Assembly: GCA_016946835.1 (NCBI GenBank)
Contig: JACVTC010000220.1
Span: forward strand, 64,001 to 128,000
Origin: Neocallimastix lanati (nom. inval.)
Lineage: Eukaryota; Neocallimastigomycota; Neocallimastigomycetes; Neocallimastigales; Neocallimastigaceae
Direction of reading: 5' to 3'
Length of the DNA: 64,000 nt
Below, one piece after another: positions 1-45,769 of this stretch (positions are counted from its first letter, which is position 1; the number at the start of each line of letters is the position of its first letter). A program made the translations under genes and the position numbers. The notes below the pieces were generated by a model. It was given only the letters and a program-made list of their open reading frames with translations. It did no database searches and had not been told where the DNA came from.

Positions 1-395
1 TCAATAAATAAATAAATATTATATAAGTTTTTCGTACTTTTTATACGTCCACTATCTATTTATCAATATATTATTATACATCCATCAATTTCAAAAATCC
101 TGTACCACGATGATGTAATAATCATACTAAGTTCTATTACTAAATATGATTATTAACTTCAACTTAATGATTAATTCATTAAGTTGAGAAATAAAATAAA
201 AATAAAAATTTTACCTAAAAGAGAGTTTATTATAAAATTAATTATAATAACAACACAAAAACCAAAGGAAGAAATATTTGTATAAAGTTAAAGTTGGTTT
301 TAAAAAATATGTTTTTGAAAAAAATATTTTATTAATTTATTAAAGTTTAGAATGTAATATTGTTATTATTATAACTATCTTTTTTATAATAATAA
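1..395. other. AT-rich non-coding left edge with a perfect hairpin
   Basis: No coding frame is visible. At 160-186 there is a perfect inverted repeat with 11-bp arms (CAACTTAATGA and TCATTAAGTTG) around a 5-nt loop. It lies left of the first structured repeat and could belong to the same element or be a chance palindrome in AT-rich DNA. Confidence 0.5.
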
Positions 396-616
396 CTCTT
401 GATTTCTTAAAGAGAAATCAAGAGCCCTTTTTATATTTTTTTTATTGAATTAAGGTTAAATAAAAAGTTGTTCTAATCTTAAAAATTATCTTATCTAGAA
501 AAAGATTAGAAGAAAAAACTAGATAAGTTTTGATCGATATTCTATTCATATCGATCATCGTATATATTAAGTAAAACCAAATATATTATTTTATATTTGG
601 ATAAAACCTTAATATA
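396..616 (+). repeat. Structured repeat, copy A (hairpin, H-type pseudoknot, two stem-loops)
   Basis: The segment opens with a perfect 12-bp hairpin (396-407 with 413-424, loop TAAAG). A classic H-type pseudoknot arrangement follows: stem 1 CTAATCTT (473-480) with AAGATTAG (502-509), and stem 2 CTTATCTAG (490-498) with CTAGATAAG (519-527). The crossing loops are 9, 3 and 9 nt, the last A-rich. Next come a 9-bp stem-loop (532-540 with 548-556) and a two-tier stem (563-571 with 608-616 outside, 577-585 with 592-600 inside). The same order of elements occurs on the minus strand at 6046-6329, and a weaker form at 45481-45590. I do not recognise the family. It could be part of an LTR or 3' end of a retroelement, a non-autonomous element, or a non-coding RNA. 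The pairing is read directly; function is unknown. Confidence 0.6.
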
Positions 617-849
617 TCGATTTTCTAAATTTTAATTTAGATCATCAAATAAAAGGAAAAATCAATAATAACCGGAATGATCTAAATTATTCTATTTTTC
701 TAAATATTATTTTTAAAATCTAATCTAAACTTATTAACATAAAACTATCTTTAAACTAGAATACAGAATTATAAAAAATACAGAAACTTATTAATTGTTC
801 TTTTAAATGTACAATGTACAAAATAAATAAAACTAATGGTTACATTAAC

Positions 850-3800
850 TTTCCATCTATACATTTGATTTTTAAAACGAAAACTGGTTAAATGCCTATA
901 ATTATCTTTAAGATATATCTGATTATAAGCATTCCTTAAGTCAAGAAGAATATGATGTTTATATTTAGCTGCATTGTTGACTAATTATTGATTTGGGATT
1001 AAACTGTTATTGACTAGAACAAAGTTAAATACTGTCCTAAAAGTACCATCCTTTTTTGGTACGTTAAAGACGTTGCAGGCGTGGTTGGTATTACATTTTT
1101 CAATTTTATTTTCTTCTAGTAATTCATTAAATTGTTTTTCTAGAGCTATCTCCTGATCTTGGTTTAGCTTTATATGAGGTTGTACTGGAAGTTTTTTGAC
1201 AACTTCTTTATTGTATGGTAGTTTTGCATTATAAACATCATCTCTTTTAAATATTTTTCCTTTAGGTGGAGTGTTAAAAACTTCTTTATATTTTTGTAAT
1301 TCTAAAGGTAGTTTTTCTATATTTTTTATGATATATTCTTCTAATCCTTCTTTGTGGTCAGTAGACAGGACAAAGGGATTGTTCACTTGTTTTTGTTTGT
1401 TCAATTCTTCTTCGACATGTTTCATTTCTTCTTGAGTTAAAAACATATATTCATTATTGTGGTTTTCTATATTCTGTTTTGGGTTTTCTTTATATTGATT
1501 TTTGATTTCTAAATTGTTGTCAAGATATTTTTTGTCCCATTCAGGATCAAATACTCCTTTTCTTGAATATACTAAATCATTGTTTCGATTCTTTTCTTTT
1601 TGTAAGAATTTTGGATAAATTTCTGGATATTTTTTATTTAATTCTAATTCATGTAATATATTATCGCCCAGAATAATCTTATCGAAGTAAAAGCTTTTAT
1701 TGTTGGCATAATTTGGTCTGTTCGTATTTACTACATTAAACCTGATGTTTTTTATATAATATGTTTTTCTTCCTAAATTAATAGCTAATTTAAGGTAAAT
1801 ATAAGTGTCAACTTGTGTTATCTTGCCCCCGGAAATAATGGAAGAAGTGTGGGAAGATTTCTTAGGGGTTAGGTTAATTTTTTCAAGAATATTTGATCCA
1901 ATAATGTTAGGGTCTGACCCGCTATCCAACATGAAAATAGAATCATATATACCATCATGGGTTAGAATCATACCACGATTCCACTTGATTCTGGAAAATT
2001 TTGGGTTATTAACTGGGATATTAGGTACGAATTGTCCTGAAATATTTCTTTCGGTATTATTAATGTGAGTATCATTACCAATTATAATATTGTTAATTTC
2101 TTTATGATTTTTGGACTCATGTATACCTTTTTTGTAAGATTTTTTGGTCCCGTGATCAGATTTTTTACTTGACATGTGATTATTTTTTCTTATTGATTTA
2201 GGACTTTTTGAGGAAGTGGGACTGCGAGCAAACGTATTTTTATAAGATTTAGAGTTATTCAGATTAAAAATTGAATTAAAGGAGTTATTAATTAATTTAT
2301 CTCCTTCTTTATTTTGGAGCTTAGTGTATAAACATTTAATAGTATCTAAATATATTTTCTTGTTAATATTATTTCTGGTATTTAGGTCAATTGCTTTATC
2401 CAAAATCGGAAGTTTTACAATGTTTTCTTTGATGAACTTAATGAATTCAGGATCTTGTATTGAATTAATAAGTTTAACTACTTTATCTCCATATTCAATA
2501 TGTAGGTTGACTGATACCTTCTCGATTTGATATATCAATTTTTCTAATGCTTCGATACTGAGTTTTTGACAAGGCTTAATGTTTTGCCAATAATGTTTTT
2601 GTTCCTCTAAGGTATATTCACAAAAGTAGAATTCAAATTCTTTAACAATTCTATTAAAAAGATTCCAAGCGAGGATTCCTCTTATGTTTGGATTATCTCT
2701 CTGTAAAGATATTATTAATATCTTTATAAATTTTAATTAAATTTAATCATAAATTTAAGTAAAATTGAAATAAATCTATTAAAAACCACGTGTATGAAAT
2801 TATTGCAAATAATTTTAAACAAAACTTCGACTTCTTCCAATCGTACTAATAAATTAAAAATTTCTCTTGTGAAACTAGTAATTGAAAATCATTTCTTTTT
2901 ATGTAATTTAAATTAAATAATAAGAGTTAAGGTTTTTTACAAGATAAATTAACAACATGAAACTATGCAATTAGTCATGTTGAAACTTGCGGCATTTTAT
3001 GCTAAAATTATATTAAATAATTATGACAACTTTTATATTATTTTTAAATAGAAAATATAATAAGAATTTATTAATAATATTTAAATAATAAATAAATAAT
3101 AAATGAGCTCGATTGAAATTGTTTATATTTATTTTAGTTATTAATTATAATTCTCTTTATTTAGTAATAGTTAATTATTTATTATTAGTTTAGGTTAGTA
3201 TTGTTTTTAAATAAATAGTTAGATAATATAATTCAATAGGAATTATATATTATAAATGTAATAAGATAAAAATATAAATAGTTAACCAAATTTCATGTAT
3301 TTTAATCGATGTAATTGTTATTAACGATTTATTGTTAATAACACTAATAATTAATAAAGATTATTTTAAAATTTAAATATAATAAAACTTATTTGTTTAT
3401 AAAACATTTTTGTGTTATTTAGTGTTATTATAATTTTTGACTTATAATCTATTTTTTAAATCAAAACTTTATACTCTCATTTTTACTAGGATGTCATTCC
3501 TCTTTTGACTGTACCATTCTTTTGCTTTTTTATCCTTTTCTACAAAGATCTTGAAGGCGTCTAAGATCTGTATTTCGTTTGATGGCGGTGCGTAGTTTTG
3601 TAAATAGAATTTAAAATCTCGTAGGTTGTCATAGCCTTTATTTTTGTTTTGATACCGTGGGCATTTTTGTTTGAAACTTTTTTGAAATAATGTTGAACTC
3701 CCCTCTACTTCTCTGATTGCCTCGAATTCATCTGGAGTAAATACGACTACTTGTTGGTGTTTATTTATTTGTGCTTCTTCGTTTTTATCTTTAAGATAAT

Positions 3801-4780
3801 ACCATTGGGAAATACTATTGGCTTCTTTTGGAATATAATTGTTATGCAAACGTTTAATTCTTAAGTTAAAATCACCATCCTTTTCATTTGGCATGTATGA
3901 CTTTCCAGTTATTGCTTGATAATAATCATTTTCATTAATATTTTCTTGTTGTAATGATTCGATAAATCCAGCGAAGGATTCATAACTTTCGGCGAAGTCT
4001 ATGGTATTATAAGTATAGTCTAATTTGGCTTTTTCTTGAAATTTTCCTTTTTCTCTTGTTCTTAGTTCTTCATGTTTTATCTGTTGTAATTGTCTTTTAA
4101 TTTCACGTTTATTCTCTTCATTACTTTTCTTGATATTGGAATTTATGATGGTTTTTAAATTTGCGAATTCCTTTTTGAATTGATCCAATTGTTCTTTATT
4201 GTTAAGATCGAGATCATTTAAACGTTTCTCTAGATTTTCATATTCATTTGTTAGTTTAGATTTTATGTTTTCCTGGGACTTAATAATGGTATTAATTTTA
4301 TCATTTGTTTCTGATTTATCTTTTGACGTGGAAGCTTTATTATTCTCTAGTTCTTGTATTAATTTAGTATGGAATTCTGCGAATGTTTCATTGCCTATGT
4401 AAGATTTATTATTATTTTCTGTGTTCATTAGATCAGACTTAGACTCTTCCTCCTCTTCGTCAGAAGAAGACTCCCAACCATCGAAGTTACCGTCGATGTA
4501 GTAGCTAAGATTATCAATTGTAGGTTCATTTAGACCAGATTGTTTGCCCCAAAGGTCCTCATATGATTTAAAAATAAGTTTATTTACTAAATTAGTATAT
4601 TTAGGATCTTTGATAAATAAAAGAATTTTATTATTGGAGCATTTGTATTCGAAAAATTTTGTAGTTTTTGGATGTTTTTCTACTAATTTTTTATATTCGA
4701 ATTGAAGGGTCTTAGATAATGTTAAATAATATGAATTAATAGTTATAAGTAAAAAGTTATGAATATTTATATTTATTAAT
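850..4780 (-). pseudogene. Ty3/gypsy-type gag-pol relic: Gag, aspartic protease, truncated reverse transcriptase
   Basis: The 5' half (3475 to about 4780) encodes a Gag-like protein with an acidic run (EEEEE, about 4445) and a long coiled-coil rich in K, E and N. Its frame is open to about 4780 with no ATG before the internal Met at 4428. The 3' half (985-2700) has a capsid-like start, a basic S/K-rich stretch, a retropepsin motif DSGSDPNIIG (about 1905-1930) and the start of an RT domain (VPKKDGTFRTV). An in-frame TAA at 985-987 interrupts the RT. The same frame continues beyond it with the RT motif A LDLRNAYNQI (catalytic Asp at 940-942), then decays near 850. No integrase or RNase H is found. 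The two halves join in phase if 2701-3474 is removed as an intron. Family membership is well supported; the element is clearly dead. Confidence 0.8.
2701..3474 (-). other. Intron-like gap inside the gag-pol relic
   Basis: This 774-nt stretch has no reading frame of note. It begins, on the minus strand, with GTATAAAG directly after an AGA codon and ends with CTTTACAG directly before another AGA codon, both in phase 0. Removing it joins the Gag and capsid/protease frames without a stop. It contains an 8-bp hairpin (CAACATGA with TCATGTTG, near 2955-2985). It could be a spliceosomal intron gained by a resident copy, or an insertion whose ends mimic splice sites. Confidence 0.5.
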
Positions 4781-6045
4781 TAATTTTAGTGTTTCGACAA
4801 ATAATATTTATAAAATTAGTAAAAATATAATTATGAAAATAATTTATAAATAAATATTTTTTTTTAAATGAATAATAATAACAACATGTATTTTTTATAT
4901 GATAAAATATAATAAATAAAATAATAAAAGATAAATAAATAAAAAAATAAATATAATTATTGTAATATAATATTCTTGGAATAATTCCCTTTTGCATAAA
5001 CGCCCAACTAACATATACGGTATTTAATAAAATATCGTATCGCTAATGATAAAGAATGGAATAATAATGATATTTTTAACATAAATTCTTAATAATTTAT
5101 TATATAAAAATTTAATAATTTTCTTATATTCTACATAATAATTTTTTTATTAATTATATTTTATAATATTAAATATTAATTTATGTAATTAATAAATTTA
5201 TATGATTGGATTTTAATAATGTAATTAAATAATATAAAAAATATGTATAATCCATATTTTTTATGAGAAGGCCTTTCTGAGGAAAGAATTAGGAGATATA
5301 GTATTGATGTAACGGTTTACACCCAATAGGTCTACACTAATAAGTAATTCGTTTTCTTAAAAAATTTGTTTTATTAATATTTTTATTAAAATATAAAATT
5401 TATTATTATTTTTTATTATTAATTAGTTATTGTAATATTTCGAATTACTTTTAACTAGTTAATAAAAGCACAAAGAAAAATTATTTTTTGTTGAGAAATT
5501 CACGCTTATTTATACTTTTTCGGAAAAACAGTTTCGGAAAAAGTTAAGATTAACGAAAGTTCGAAAAATTAAGTTTTCTTTCTAGAAAATGAATCTTATA
5601 GAAAAATGATAAAATAATTATTAAAATAGAACTTTCTAGTTTCATTTAGTTATATAATATTAACCAAAGAAACTCTAGAACTTTCTACAATAATTTAATT
5701 AATTAACTAAAAATAATTTAGATTGGGAAAGGGTGTGAGTCGAACCTAAGAAGTTCGGCTTCATTGTCATGGTGTATTACCACCAGCCTACAACAACAAT
5801 TTTACTAACTTTATGTAAGAATATAGATTTATTTCTTATAAAATAATCTATCTTCTTATTTAATTAATTTATATTTCATTTATATTTCAATATTTATTAA
5901 CATGTAAAAAATATATTAATTTATCCAAATTAATATATTGAAAAATAATGTAAACAAATTTGTTGTAATGTATTAATTACTTAAAAATATTATTTATATT
6001 TTATTATTTCAATTAGTTGATAATTTATAAGATTTTAGCAATCGG
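4781..6045. other. Non-coding AT-rich region upstream of the gag relic
   Basis: No convincing coding frame. It should contain whatever remains of the 5' end of the minus-strand retroelement, but I could not delimit an LTR. Short hairpins occur near 5266-5285 (around AAGGCCTT) and 5520-5545 (TTTTTCGGAAAAA-type). A tRNA-like B-box lies at about 5739-5754 on the minus strand. Confidence 0.5.
5725..5797 (-). other. Degenerate tRNA-like segment with a B-box
   Basis: On the minus strand the segment carries GGTTCGACTC, a good match to the RNA polymerase III B-box/T-loop, and a weak A-box-like TAGGCTGGTGG about 35 nt upstream. The acceptor arms do not pair and the expected T-stem is mismatched, so a functional tRNA is unlikely. 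The 3' end reads CCCTTTCCCA, with a CA(A) end where a tRNA would carry CCA. A tRNA fragment copied by a retroelement, or a SINE head, would fit. Low confidence. Confidence 0.25.
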
Positions 6046-6329
6046 TTAATTAATTTTTTTTCCCCAATATTATTATGATTGGGTTTTTATTAATTAATAC
6101 GATGATTAATATATTAGAATATTAATCGAAGTTATTCAGGTTTTTCTACTAATCTTTTCCTGAATATCAATTTGTTAAGATTAGATACCTTTATTTGATT
6201 TGTTAACTTTATCTTATCTATTTTATTTATTTAATAATTACATCTATTTAATAATTTCATCTATTAAAATAATTATAAATAAAAAAGTATAAAAGAACTC
6301 AAATTTCTTTGATTAAAGAAATTAGAGTT
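6046..6329 (-). repeat. Structured repeat, copy B (inverted relative to copy A)
   Basis: Reading the minus strand, there is a hairpin (arms 6315-6329 and 6296-6310, one internal mismatch). It is followed by an H-type pseudoknot: stem 1 CTAATCTT (6184-6177) with AAGATTAG (6156-6149), and stem 2 ATATTCAGG (6167-6159) with CCTGAATA (6140-6133). A stem-loop (6119-6127 with 6104-6112) and a two-tier stem around CCCAAT/ATTGGG (6046-6100) follow. Stem 1 is identical to copy A. Stem 2 differs from copy A on both sides yet still pairs. Copies A and B point toward each other across the gag-pol relic. Confidence 0.6.
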
Positions 6330-7178
6330 ATTATTATATAATGCTATATAATAAATTAAAAGAAAATAAAGTCTTTTTGTTTATTTCAATATTTAGTGTT
6401 TATAATAAACTCTATATAAAGTTAAGTATAAATTTTTATATCTTAAAATATTAATAATCTAGTTATAGTTAGTATATTATAAATAGATTATTACACTTTA
6501 GGATTCGTTACAATTGATAATAAAATAGAAGGGTTTCCCATATTGTTATTAAAATAAATATTAATATTAATCAAGTTATTTTTAACAATAAAATAATAAT
6601 TTATAAATAATAAATATTTGCAATAATAGTTCTTTAAATAAAATTTATAATGTGTAGTAATAATTTCTTTAGTGTAATATAGTTAGTTAATTTATCTATT
6701 TATTAATGTTCACACTCCTTTTACAATATGAACCTCAACACGATTGGTACGAGACCAACTGAAATTTATAAAATTAACATAGCTTTAGCGTAGAAAATAA
6801 ATATTAATAATCATAAATGTAGTACAAAGTTGTACAAAATTTTAATGTATAAAATTTTTAATATATATGGAATTTAGAAATAATTTAATTAAAAGAAATT
6901 GAGATTTAAAATTTTATAATAAATAGAGTAAATCAAATAAAATAATAAATAAGAAAGAAATTAAATAGTTTAATAATAATAAATTATTGAGTGTTATTTG
7001 GAATATTAGTATATTTACCTTTAACAAACTAGAAATTCAATGTAATGGACCATCAATGATAAAGAATGAAAATTAAAAATTAATAAATAATTAAATAATA
7101 AAAAAGTAATTAATTTTTAGATTATAAACATTTAAATTTTAAATATTTAAAAATATTAAATATTTAAATAATAATAAT
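6330..7178. other. Non-coding AT-rich region, possible minus-strand LTR start
   Basis: No gene. On the minus strand the string AAAAGGAG followed by TGTGAACATT (boundary near 6716) resembles a polypurine tract followed by an LTR start, similar in form to GAGGGGGAG/TGTTGAC at the copia element's 3' end. No matching second copy was found, so this is only a hint. A small hairpin TTGGT-ACGAG-ACCAA lies near 6743-6757. Confidence 0.3.
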
Positions 7179-9411
7179 ATGAAAAAATATTTTAATAATA
7201 AAAATTTTTCAAAAAATGAAGAAAATTTTCATGAAAATCTATTGGCTGAAGCAAAATCACATCCATATCATATCAAAAAATTTTCAAATAATTCAATAAT
7301 TTCAAAAAACACTAATGAATCACATAAAACATATAACAACAATAATGATTCACATAAATCTATTAATAATTCAAATAAATCAATGAATATCAAAAATTTA
7401 ACCAAAAAAATGATCAAAATTTAATTAATAAAAATTTTTTATCGAAAAATAATTGAATTAATTCAACAAAATTCAAAACCCAGCGACTCTATGAAGAAAA
7501 ACTATAATTTCTCCACTCCTACAATAGATATCAAAAATATTCCTTCAGATAATAAAAATACGGTAATGGAAAATCTTAAAAATATAACTCTTCCATATAA
7601 TATTAATCATAATTTACCTTAAATAAACGATTCTTCAACCAACCAAATTTCTCAAAAATCAGACAAAATTTCACTTACTAATAATAACGAAATAAATAAT
7701 AAATTTAACAACAATAATATGGTAAACAAAGAAAATTATGCCCACAAATCTCTTATAGATGCATCAAATGTTATTGATTTTAATAAAGATGAAATTATGG
7801 ATTACATTGTAGCCAATACAGAATATGACAATATCAATAAAAGACCACTTAGTCCAAAATATAAAGAGACTGCACCTACTAATATTAGTTCTCGTAGAAA
7901 ACTAGACCAAATCAACGACATTATTATTGCTTCTTCTATATTTTGTCACATTCCCAATACATATGAAGAAGCAATAAACAGTGAAGACAAAAATAACTGG
8001 AATTGTGGCTATTAATGATGAACTTAATAGCCTTTATTCTAATAATATTATGACTTTTGTTAAAAATGTACCTAAAAAACAAAAACATCATTTCCACATA
8101 ATGGGTTTTCAACACTAAACGTGATTCAAATAATAATATTTATAAATATAAAGCTTGTTTAGTTGCTCATGGATTTAAACAAAAAATGGGGAATCGATTA
8201 TGAATTAACTTATTCTCCTACTCTAAACATTGATGGTCTTAAACTAATAATTGCTATTTCTGCTGCTCTTAAGTGGAATATTTTCCAGCTAGATATAAAA
8301 GGCCGCTTACCTTAATGCTCCGTTTGATAAAGATATTTATACTACTATTCCTAAAGGCGATACGCGCTTTGTATGGCCTTAAGCAATCTGGTAGACAATG
8401 GTATCATGCCATTAGAAAATTCCTAATAAAAAATGAGTTCATTCAAATTAAATCCGAACAATGTATTTTCAAATTTACAAAAAAATAATATAACAAAATG
8501 CTTTATCGGTTTATATGTGGACGACATGGTCATCGCTGGGGAAAACGAATACATTAAACAAATAATAAATAAAATAAAATCAAAATTTAAAATATCTTAA
8601 TGTGATCCAATTGAATACATATTAGGAATTGAAGTAAAGAAAAGAAAATAATTCATATATTATTTCACAGAAAAATTTTATAAATAATATGTTATATAAA
8701 TTTAATATTGATAATACAAAGAAAAGAAAAGCACCATGTACTGGTGATAATAAAATATCAGAAAAACAATAAACCTTTCGATAAAACAATCTACAAGAGC
8801 GCAATAGGTTCCTTAATATACCTTTCGAAATGTACTAGACCATGACATAACTTTCGCTATAAATAAAGCTTCATGAAAATGTGAAAATCCAACTATATCG
8901 GATTGGAACAAAATAATAAATATTCTAAAATATATTAACAGTACTAAAGAATTTAAGATAGAATATAAAGGAAAGAGGGAGCTTTGTTGCATATACCGAC
9001 TCTGACTTTGCCGGCTGTTTGGAAGATAGAAAATCTACCTCAGGAGGAATAATACTAATGGGAACAAGTCCGATATGCTGGTTGTCCAAGAAACAAACAA
9101 GTGTTGCTACGTCTACTGCTGAAGCAGAGTACGTAAGCACTTCCGAAAATATAAAGAAAATATTATGGATTAGAAATATAATAAAAGAAATTTTAAATAA
9201 ATGGATAACTGTTAAAATCGGTACAGATAATCAAGCAAGTAAGAAAATAATGGAGAACGGAGAAATAAATACAAAATTAAAGCATATAAGTGTAAGATAT
9301 CATTTCAACAGGGACAATATTGCAAAGAAGAAAGTAAAATTAGAATATATTGATACTGAAAATATGCTAGCGGACATATTAACCAAGGACTCAAATGGAC
9401 CAAAGATATAA
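7179..9411 (+). pseudogene. Ty1/copia-type pol relic (reverse transcriptase and RNase H)
   Basis: Scattered frames give the order of a copia polyprotein. An Asn/Lys/Ser-rich stretch (7179-7424) is followed by the pre-RT region with PNTYEEAINSEDKNNW (about 7953-8003). Then come RT blocks including WVFNT, LVAHGF, a YSPT-type block and YSP-flanking segments, and the RT catalytic box YVDDM (8514-8528). Finally the copia RNase H appears with YTDSDFAG (about 8990-9015), DRKSTSGG and STAEAEYVS (9019-9140), plus the C-terminal ADILTK block. Several frameshifts and stops separate these pieces (for example near 8007-8015 and 8180-8200), so the element is dead. The RNase H part is the longest intact stretch. 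No integrase was identified. Confidence 0.85.
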
Positions 9412-44180: not shown

Positions 44181-45480
44181 ATTTTTTATAAATTAGTATT
44201 TTTCAAACCTTTTTTAATTAAGATTATAATTTTAAAAGATATTATTTTTCAAATTTTTTTATAAATTAAATTATAATTAAAACTGTTCCATTTAATAATA
44301 GTTATTTTTTTTATTAATATCAATATCAATATCATATTATATATAGAATATCAATATTTTACATAGTTTATAGTTTTTTATTATTAATATCGATATCAAT
44401 ATTATATTGTTTTTTATTATTAATATCAATATCAATATTACATAGTTTTTTTTTATTTCATTAAAATTTTAATAATAAAATAAAAATATATATATTTATT
44501 TATTATTATTACTATCATTATTAGTATTATCATTATCATTACTATTATTATTACTGATGAAATATGAAGCTCAGATTTAATATTTTATAATATATATTTT
44601 ATTTAATAATAATTTTTTTTAATAAAAAAGAATCCTCTTTCTAAATAATAATTATTACATGTATTTTATATTAATTTTATTTATAATAAAGCAATAAATG
44701 CTTGATTTTATTTACTATATTTTAACAATTACTATTATTATTTTTGTACACTAATTATAAAATTTAATCTTGAATTTTTTTTATTGAAAATAATTACAAT
44801 TATTTAATTAAATATTTATTATTTTTTTGAAATAATTCTAAACTTTGTATATATTTTATTTAAAAATTTATTATGAAATATTAATGTAAATAATTTTTTA
44901 AATTTGATGAGTATAATTTTTTTTTTTTTTATTTTATTAATTTTTTTTTTTTTTGAATTATAAGTTTTATTTGTTTATTTATTTATTTTTTTTACAAAGT
45001 TGAAAGTTCGAATAGATTACTCTTTTTTTATTATTATTATTTTATTTTTTTTTTTATATCTTGGAGTATACTGTTTTTTGATAATGAATTTTATTATAGA
45101 AAGAAAACTATTATAGTATTAAAATTTCTATCTTAATTCAATAAATATCATAATAGTTTATCTTTTCATTAATTGATTTTTACTAATTATATTTTATTAT
45201 TATTAATTTTCAACTTATTAATCATTAATTCTACTGATACTTATAATTATTTTACGATTCAGATTAAAACCAAAATTAATTATAAGTTTTCTTTTTTAAG
45301 GAAATCTTTTTTCTTTTTTATTTTATTTTTTTTTTAATTTTTATTAAGTTATTATAATCTATATTAATTATATTGATAGTTAAATTAATAATTTATTCAA
45401 AAAAAAAAAAATAAAAAAAAAAATAAAAAAAAAAATAAAATAAAATAAATTTTATTTTATTATTGTTAATTTATTACAAG
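44181..45480. other. Non-coding region with a 50-bp tandem repeat
   Basis: At about 44305-44455, three tandem diverged units carry TTATTAATATCAATATCAATATTA and end in ACATAGTTT or ATTGTTTTT. The remainder is T-rich filler without a gene. Parts may belong to the 3' end of the MULE relic. Confidence 0.65.
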
Positions 45481-45590
45481 CTCTAGAAAAAGATTAAAAG
45501 AAAAACTAGAAAAGTTTCAATTGATAATCTATACATAGCAGTTATCATATTATTAGATAAAATCATTATTAATAATGGATAAAACTCCAA
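45481..45590 (+). repeat. Structured repeat, copy C (degraded)
   Basis: Aligns to 494-605. It keeps TCTAGAAAAAGATTA, the A-rich loop, CTAGA (stem 2, now only 5 bp: 45482-45486 with 45506-45510), the next stem TGATAA/TTATCA (45522-45527 with 45542-45547), and ATTAGATAAAATC...GGATAAAAC. The partner for stem 1 (CTAATCTT) is missing upstream. It is probably a decayed copy. Confidence 0.5.
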
Positions 45591-45769
45591 TTACCGATTG
45601 ACAACTAGTTATTAAATTTAAAAAAAAAAATTAAAATAAAAAAGAATAAAAAATATAAAAAAAAAAGGAATAAAAAATAAAACAATAGACTAATTAATTT
45701 TAGTATTATTATTAATTAGGAATAGGAATATAGATAATATTCTATAAGAATATAACTAGATTCTTATAT

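Follow-up and report, generated by a model that had tools for sequence, protein, structure and literature searches.

A covarying pseudoknot beside a U-rich two-tier stem in the long terminal repeats of predicted Tf1-like retrotransposons of an anaerobic gut fungus

The stretch of DNA analyzed here (the window) comprises 64,000 nucleotides of the anaerobic gut fungus Neocallimastix lanati (contig JACVTC010000220.1, positions 64,001 to 128,000). It contains two long terminal repeats (LTRs) of retrotransposons, copies A and B, each with a structured module, and a third, weaker match to the same module (expect value, E, 4e-7), the decayed copy C (Table 1). An earlier note, made from the sequence alone, described copies A and B as an inverted pair of repeats that share a hairpin, an H-type pseudoknot, a stem-loop and a two-tier stem. 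We found all four elements in place in both copies. The two-tier stem is called ENE-like below, after the element for nuclear expression (ENE). Stem 1 of the pseudoknot is identical in A and B (CTAATCTT/AAGATTAG); it has two matches in the window, at 473-509 and 6149-6184, and none in 100 shuffles. As reported, stem 2 differs between the copies on both sides and still pairs.

The opposite orientation of copies A and B was also described correctly. However, each belongs to its own LTR subfamily, and the two are not the ends of a single element. A 5.9-kb transposon whose terminal inverted repeats would be A and B was considered and rejected, because the two copies match different LTR subfamilies and copy B has its own target-site duplication. 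The extent of the repeats had been drawn too narrowly: homology runs far past the structures, since the copies are whole or truncated LTRs. Copy A matches loci L009, L012, L018 and L019 at 93%, and every alignment to these A-type copies stops at 851, so that copy A seems to be truncated there. Copy B has the hallmarks of an LTR, namely TG..CA ends and a CTTTA duplication.

The genome searched is a 199-Mb assembly of 762 contigs. At locus L021 of this genome, a pair of direct repeats that agree at 1,010 of 1,034 aligned positions, likewise a hallmark of LTRs, flanks a single open reading frame (ORF) of 1,358 amino acids. According to Pfam, this ORF, examined in one copy, encodes Ty3_capsid, RVP_2, RVT_1, RNase H, integrase and Tf2-1 SH3 domains in the order typical of Ty3, and its direction is opposite to that of the module. 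The same orientation was found in a larger sample. Thirty integrase-anchored loci, the best of the 150 scored out of 3,462 candidates, were fetched regardless of the module; they form two close groups (integrase 96-99% and 84-86%). The module was found in 29 of the 30 loci, on the strand opposite to gag-pol in 29 of 29 cases, and L050 holds a 63-nt remnant only. Among 13 further loci chosen for diversity, 12 have the module or its remnant, again on the opposite strand, and none was found in L065. Since the module strand is opposite to gag-pol, the gag-pol sense RNA would carry the reverse complement of the module, in U3, i.e., in the 3' untranslated region (UTR).

At three 5'-LTR junctions TTACA is followed directly by ATAATAACTCTTCT, the first 12 nt of which exactly complement AAGAGTTATTAT within the LTR. 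This gives a putative primer-binding site (PBS) that would pair with a motif ~35 nt past a TATA box. The spacing was assessed in ten loci with 20 start motifs having TATAAA within 60 nt. The distance from the TATA box to the GAG of the motif is 36-41 nt in 18 of the 20; the other two are of B type and have a nearer TATAAAAG at 37 nt. A TATAATAAAC-like block with AATAAA lies 75-192 nt beyond the start motif in 19 of the 20. In copy B the start motif (AGAGTTATTAT) is preceded by T and not A, which gives one mismatch to the 12-nt PBS. The transcript start is predicted from the TATA spacing, and the transcript ends are predicted too. Read in sense, the LTR contains the ENE-like stem, the stem-loop, the pseudoknot, the TATA box, the hairpin, the putative start of R, the putative poly(A) signal and U5, in this order.

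By their sequence features the carriers are Ty3/gypsy elements of a predicted Tf1-like, self-priming type. In Tf1, the first 11 bases of the RNA pair with the PBS (PMC7175516). The gut-fungus elements resemble Tf1 and Tf2 of fission yeast in their gag-pol domains, including Tf2-1 SH3, and in a putative PBS complementary to the predicted start of their own RNA; unlike Tf1, they have a complement of 12 nt instead of 11 bases, and their LTR bears a structured module (PMC7175516).

Copies A and B are members of a genome-wide family. The exact stem-1 pattern occurs at 1,297 places in the genome, compared with 91 in a reversed control. The loop-based pattern AGGAAAAGN{3,8}AGAAAAACCT occurs at 1,259 places, compared with 1 in the control. 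Individual places are considered below among the first ones listed for either pattern; as the stem-1 pattern is its own reverse complement, each of its places is listed on both strands. The Rfam search that the note had suggested gave 0 of 4227 families at the gathering score in the window. A permissive scan of positions 380-640 gave four weak matches (best E 0.054, far under the gathering scores), and the same kind of scan in eight loci gave nothing up to E 1. The module patterns had no match in viral contigs, a set that may lack records of the same or a closely related genome. A pattern search of a set of genome contigs gave four matches, and the module model scored there no better than chance (best 13.9 bits, E 1.1).

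Two separate observations concern the placement of the copies. The listed stem-1 places form LTR clusters in contigs C1, C2, C5, C6 and C11, some of them near contig ends. In L080 (genome C14:144920-145224) the pseudoknot directly abuts CCCTAA telomere-like repeats.

The regions of copies A and B have folding z-scores of -6.5 and -5.4 against dinucleotide shuffles. Pairing was then compared between copies in three sets. The first includes 19 copies with exact stem 1; it omits L013:7760 and L021:2368, which are without the end motif, and identical copies, and alignment A4 also omits L013:334-484. In this set 68 cells of stem 2 and the other helices are doubly changed, compared with 21.8 in shuffles, and 94.0% of cells are paired, compared with 86.1%. 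Because the copies were selected by exact stem 1, such alignments cannot test stem 1 itself. The second set covers the nested helices (39 pairs, stem 2 excluded) in 37 distinct rows, obtained from 51 model matches in 39 source loci. Here 95.8% of cells are paired (85.0% in shuffles) and 29 pairs are doubly changed (11.5 in shuffles, with 0 of 500 as high), in an alignment that leans towards the structure since it was fitted to it. Sliding the partners by 1-3 columns reduces pairing to 24-40%.

The third set was made for the pseudoknot and consists of 26 distinct types with 87 instances; it omits L001-L004, which duplicate stretches of L005-L007, and L084-L087. In stem 2, 203 of 234 cells are paired, while the shuffled mean is 178.5 and the maximum in 1,000 shuffles is 191. 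In stem 1 the count is 155 of 156 (shuffled mean 150.5, maximum 154), which is a less free test because the selecting pattern prescribed both U tracts as well as a portion of stem 1, whose partner was in turn chosen by best match. A MAFFT alignment of the pseudoknot types, in which the stem-1 3' strand was shifted in L059, L072 and L083, was left out of the pair counts. Stem 1 has the forms CTAATCTT/AAGATTAG, CCAAATCTT/AAGATTTGG and GCTAGTC/GACTAGC, and stem 2 has about ten sequence forms among the copies examined. Both pseudoknot stems covary. The selection on RNA structure that had been proposed from two copies is supported by many more, with compensatory change in stem 1 elsewhere as well. 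The reservation made in the note, that these might be ordinary LTRs without conserved pairing, is half right: the copies are LTRs, but their pairing is conserved.

The same data bear on whether the palindromes of U3 act at the DNA level, as promoter architecture bound by proteins or forming cruciforms. We regard this as highly unlikely, although the first hairpin, which lies between the TATA box and the putative start site, is a near-perfect palindrome and wobble pairs are rare overall. Protein-binding sites keep their sequence, whereas the stems of the module vary yet pair, and the topology of a pseudoknot is meaningless in duplex DNA.

ENEs occur in fungal transposons. The 2016 survey by Tycowski, Shu and Steitz in Cell Rep is reportedly the key account of ENEs in plant and fungal transposons, and it may already list this family. 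An ENE is defined as a stem-loop with a U-rich internal loop (PMC11411715). Read in sense, the two-tier stem consists of a lower stem, a U loop, an upper stem opened by a C-G pair and a second U loop in 13 of 14 chosen modules. The exception is the decayed copy C; in L077 the lower stem is interrupted. The C-G pair begins the upper stem in all 13 folding modules, and the side of the lower stem next to the U tracts has G-C in many modules, but not in all. The lower stems of the main type, L055 and L073 are clearly unlike in sequence, while those of L009:8071 and L013 partly resemble the main type. A strict ENE descriptor, applied to both strands of the window, gave two matches, which are copies A and B in sense. 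Since the sense strand has the ENE layout, the earlier statement that no described family has such an arrangement is wrong as far as the two-tier stem is concerned. The third loop of the pseudoknot is indeed A-rich on the strand on which it was first read, but the sense RNA of the retrotransposon corresponds to the other strand, and the original choice of strand was probably a misreading. As a side observation, L055, L073 and L074 keep the pseudoknot and the ENE-like stem, and the intervening stem-loop seems to be missing.

It is unlikely that the module acts on the strand first read, as an antisense or stand-alone LTR RNA whose A-rich loops would contact the stems through their minor groove. 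Such a reading agrees with the fact that folded RNAs often contain unpaired stretches rich in A, and some G-U pairs do lie on the module strand (in the upper ENE stem of the L005 type and, by eye, in the stem-loop of L013), the total being even. However, it requires antisense transcription and leaves unexplained why an ENE layout with differing stems appears in the reverse complement. In addition, the common L070 subfamily has in stem 1 an A-C mismatch on the module strand that is a G-U pair in sense; the L070-type 3' strand was found at 22 of the ~100 loop-pattern places listed.

The closest parallel is the Arabidopsis LTR element Evade (Copia93), in which an ENE in the 3' UTR forms a triplex with poly(A); the triplex requires the U tracts and the adjacent G-C pairs, and deletion of the ENE results in lower RNA stability and fewer new insertions (PMC12501189). 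The ENE of Evade sits in the spacer between the ORF and the 3' LTR, whereas the ENE-like stem of the gut fungus lies inside U3 and hence in both LTRs. Another difference from Evade as described there is that a covarying pseudoknot with U tracts of its own adjoins the gut-fungus stem, for which a triplex is proposed here.

In sense order the pseudoknot runs stem 2, UUUUUCU, stem 1, UUUU, stem 2, a variable loop and stem 1. The A-rich loops of the module strand thus correspond to the U tracts UUUUUCU and UUUU, which stay while both helices vary in sequence. Both tracts were part of the search patterns for many copies, and therefore their constancy is best judged on integrase-fetched loci. Ten of the 13 loci chosen for diversity (L055-L063 and L067) have a pseudoknot with the two tracts, while L064 has lost the stem-1 partner and L066 most of the pseudoknot.

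Telomerase RNA has a triplex pseudoknot, which is also of the H-type and has a U-rich loop. An intramolecular U-A-U triplex of the U-rich loop and stem 1 would account for UUUUUCU ahead of the stem-1 strand and for AAGA in the partner strand of the main type. However, L059, L072, L083 and L073/L074 carry GACUAG in place of GAUUAG and still have UUUUUCU and UUUU. In L059, L072 and L083 the UUUU tract is kept though its AA partner is gone and the strand is no longer A-rich, so that an internal triplex of the telomerase type is very unlikely; the stem sequence that it needs is not kept in all gut-fungus types. The simplest guess is that the U tract is retained to bind a partner beyond the pseudoknot, for example poly(A).

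This leads to a tentative proposal, which we hold as a possibility and not as an expectation. The pseudoknot may be a pseudoknotted ENE, in which UUUUUCU and UUUU at the junction of the two helices would clamp poly(A) in a triple helix, with the downstream strand supplying the upper helix. With the neighboring ENE, U3 would then hold two poly(A) clamps in tandem, and a single lineage would depend solely on that of the pseudoknot. The module of a rice hAT element is known as a "double ENE". Both Evade (PMC12501189) and this rice element (cited in PMC12846552) have, like the gut-fungus elements, four U tracts within one 3'-UTR module; here, in contrast, one pair of U tracts lies in a pseudoknot and not in the internal loop of an ordinary stem. 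Pseudoknots of alphaviruses and potexviruses involve the poly(A) tail (cited in PMC12846552). They are similar to the present one in that it, too, would act at the tail, but the tail is part of the viral pseudoknot, whereas both helices are internal here. No pseudoknotted ENE was found in the literature searched (titles, beginnings of abstracts and passages of PMC12846552), the 2016 ENE survey being outside that scope. Thus the ENE-like part has the layout of an already described type of element, and its pseudoknot partner is unreported as far as this coverage goes.

Taking these results together, we consider it likely that the module is a structured RNA in the U3 of a Tf1-like Ty3/gypsy LTR and serves as a sense-strand device for 3'-end stability, an ENE plus a pseudoknot. 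The sense RNA would carry the module once, in the 3' UTR between gag-pol and R, as ENE-like stem, stem-loop and pseudoknot. A U-A-U triple helix would form between the downstream poly(A) tail and the U-rich loop inside the ENE-like stem; it would slow deadenylation and give a long-lived genomic RNA. The pseudoknot probably belongs to the same 3'-end device, perhaps as a second poly(A) clamp whose own helix serves as the upper helix. Of the functions left open in the earlier note, a retroelement signal fits best; nothing pointed to a ribozyme or a translation element in the Rfam search, which was the only check made for these.

Several points weigh against this explanation. The folds were already known when the strict ENE descriptor took its final form, and an earlier version matched none of A, B and C. 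It catches 10 of 16 representatives and misses C, L005, L070, L077, L059 and L083. Markov sequences of window length give 0.37 matches to it on average and up to 3, so that two matches are not rare enough to be proof alone. Among the 19 copies with exact stem 1, further pair types number 25, compared with 28.3 in shuffles, and 490 of 500 shuffles are as high. In the 26-type set, the stem-1 partner was whichever sequence matched best within a short stretch, a choice that favors pairing. The wobble count of the pseudoknot is even, with 6 G-U and 6 A-C pairs on the sense strand. In copies A and B the putative poly(A) signal, predicted from the sequence, lies ~220-330 nt beyond the pseudoknot and the ENE. 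Finally, L059 and L083 have no ENE-like stem, and by eye the closely related L072 has none either. These loci keep the pseudoknot, which must therefore have a use without the ENE-like stem.

The last point also favors the reading that the module is a sense-strand structured RNA with another job, such as packaging, dimerization, nuclear export or strand transfer. The position in U3, because of which the genomic RNA would have the module at its 3' end only, suits such a job as well. Another job of this kind would not predict the paired U tracts and the GC-closed upper stem, and we see it as a real but rather improbable alternative to a 3'-end stability device.

Table 1. Positions of module copies and associated LTR features in the window (strand refers to the gag-pol sense where given)
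Feature	Position	Strand	Remarks
LTR, copy A	114..851	- (expected gag-pol sense)	apparently truncated near 851; U5 end ...GATTATTACA at 114
Conserved TATAATAAACTC block with AATAAA, putative polyadenylation signal, copy A	223..234	-	
AAGAGTTATTAT, putative transcript start, copy A	389..400	-	complements PBS ATAATAACTCTT of full-length relatives
Palindrome/hairpin, copy A	396..424		TATA box on one side, putative start site on the other
TATA box, copy A	430..435	-	TATAAA on minus; 37 nt ahead of GAG of the start motif
H-type pseudoknot, copy A	473..527	-	stem 1 473-480/502-509, stem 2 490-498/519-527; loops on minus are U-rich tracts
Stem-loop, copy A	532..556	-	pseudoknot on one side, ENE-like stem on the other
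ENE-like (two-tier) stem, copy A	557..621	-	lower stem, U tracts, CC/GG-closed upper stem
Target-site duplication CTTTA, left copy	5809..5813		read directly
Solo LTR, copy B (TGTAAG...ATTACA)	5814..6495	+	98.7% to locus L023 across 5814-6496
ENE-like stem, copy B	6041..6103	+	U-rich loop of 8 and 5 nt
Stem-loop, copy B	6104..6127	+	
Pseudoknot, copy B	6133..6184	+	stem 2 6133-6140/6159-6166, U tract 6141-6145; stem 1 6149-6156/6177-6184, U4 6155-6158
TATA box TATAAAAG, copy B	6288..6295	+	37 nt ahead of GAG at 6325
Hairpin/palindrome, copy B	6296..6329		overlaps putative start motif AGAGTTATTAT (6324-6334)
AATAAA in conserved TATAATAAACTC block, copy B	6404..6409	+	
Target-site duplication CTTTA, right copy	6496..6500		read directly
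Copy C, decayed remnant of the module	45463..45598	-	no ENE fold, stem 1 broken

Other features of the window were noted as well. The ORF at 985-2736 (minus) looks by eye like a protease/reverse transcriptase fragment, and that at 8962-9411 (plus) like a copia-type RNase H, both with no Pfam hit at 0.01. The ORF at 3469-4779 (minus) is gag-like by eye and has only a weak DUF7833 match below the cut-off. No sign was found that the ORFs at 985-2736 and 3469-4779 share an element with LTRs A and B. A deacetylase gene in the window has matches among proteins labelled Neocallimastix, Piromyces and Anaeromyces, and to one bearing the code Orpsp1, presumably Orpinomyces, in agreement with an anaerobic gut fungus as host.

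No tRNA gene was called across the window. A tRNA-like stretch (GGTTCGACTCACACC, one strand) occurs at 5725-5795 of the window, at 2579-2661 of L018, at ~1610-1500 (minus) of L059 and at 1416 and 6759 of L013. At the window, L018 and L059 places TTTTACTAAC comes directly after it, and an LTR-type end follows within ~20 bp. It is perhaps a tRNA-derived repeat, or a trace of integration near a sequence of the RNA polymerase III type.

If the module does stabilize RNA 3' ends, retrotransposons of gut fungi hold a large natural library of poly(A)-guarding RNAs in which an ENE and a pseudoknot are combined. This library would include more than 1,000 pattern matches, with about ten types of stem 2 among those examined, and the variants in it would be useful for testing the protection of RNA ends by triple helices. 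The module might also be one reason for the high numbers of this family of elements.

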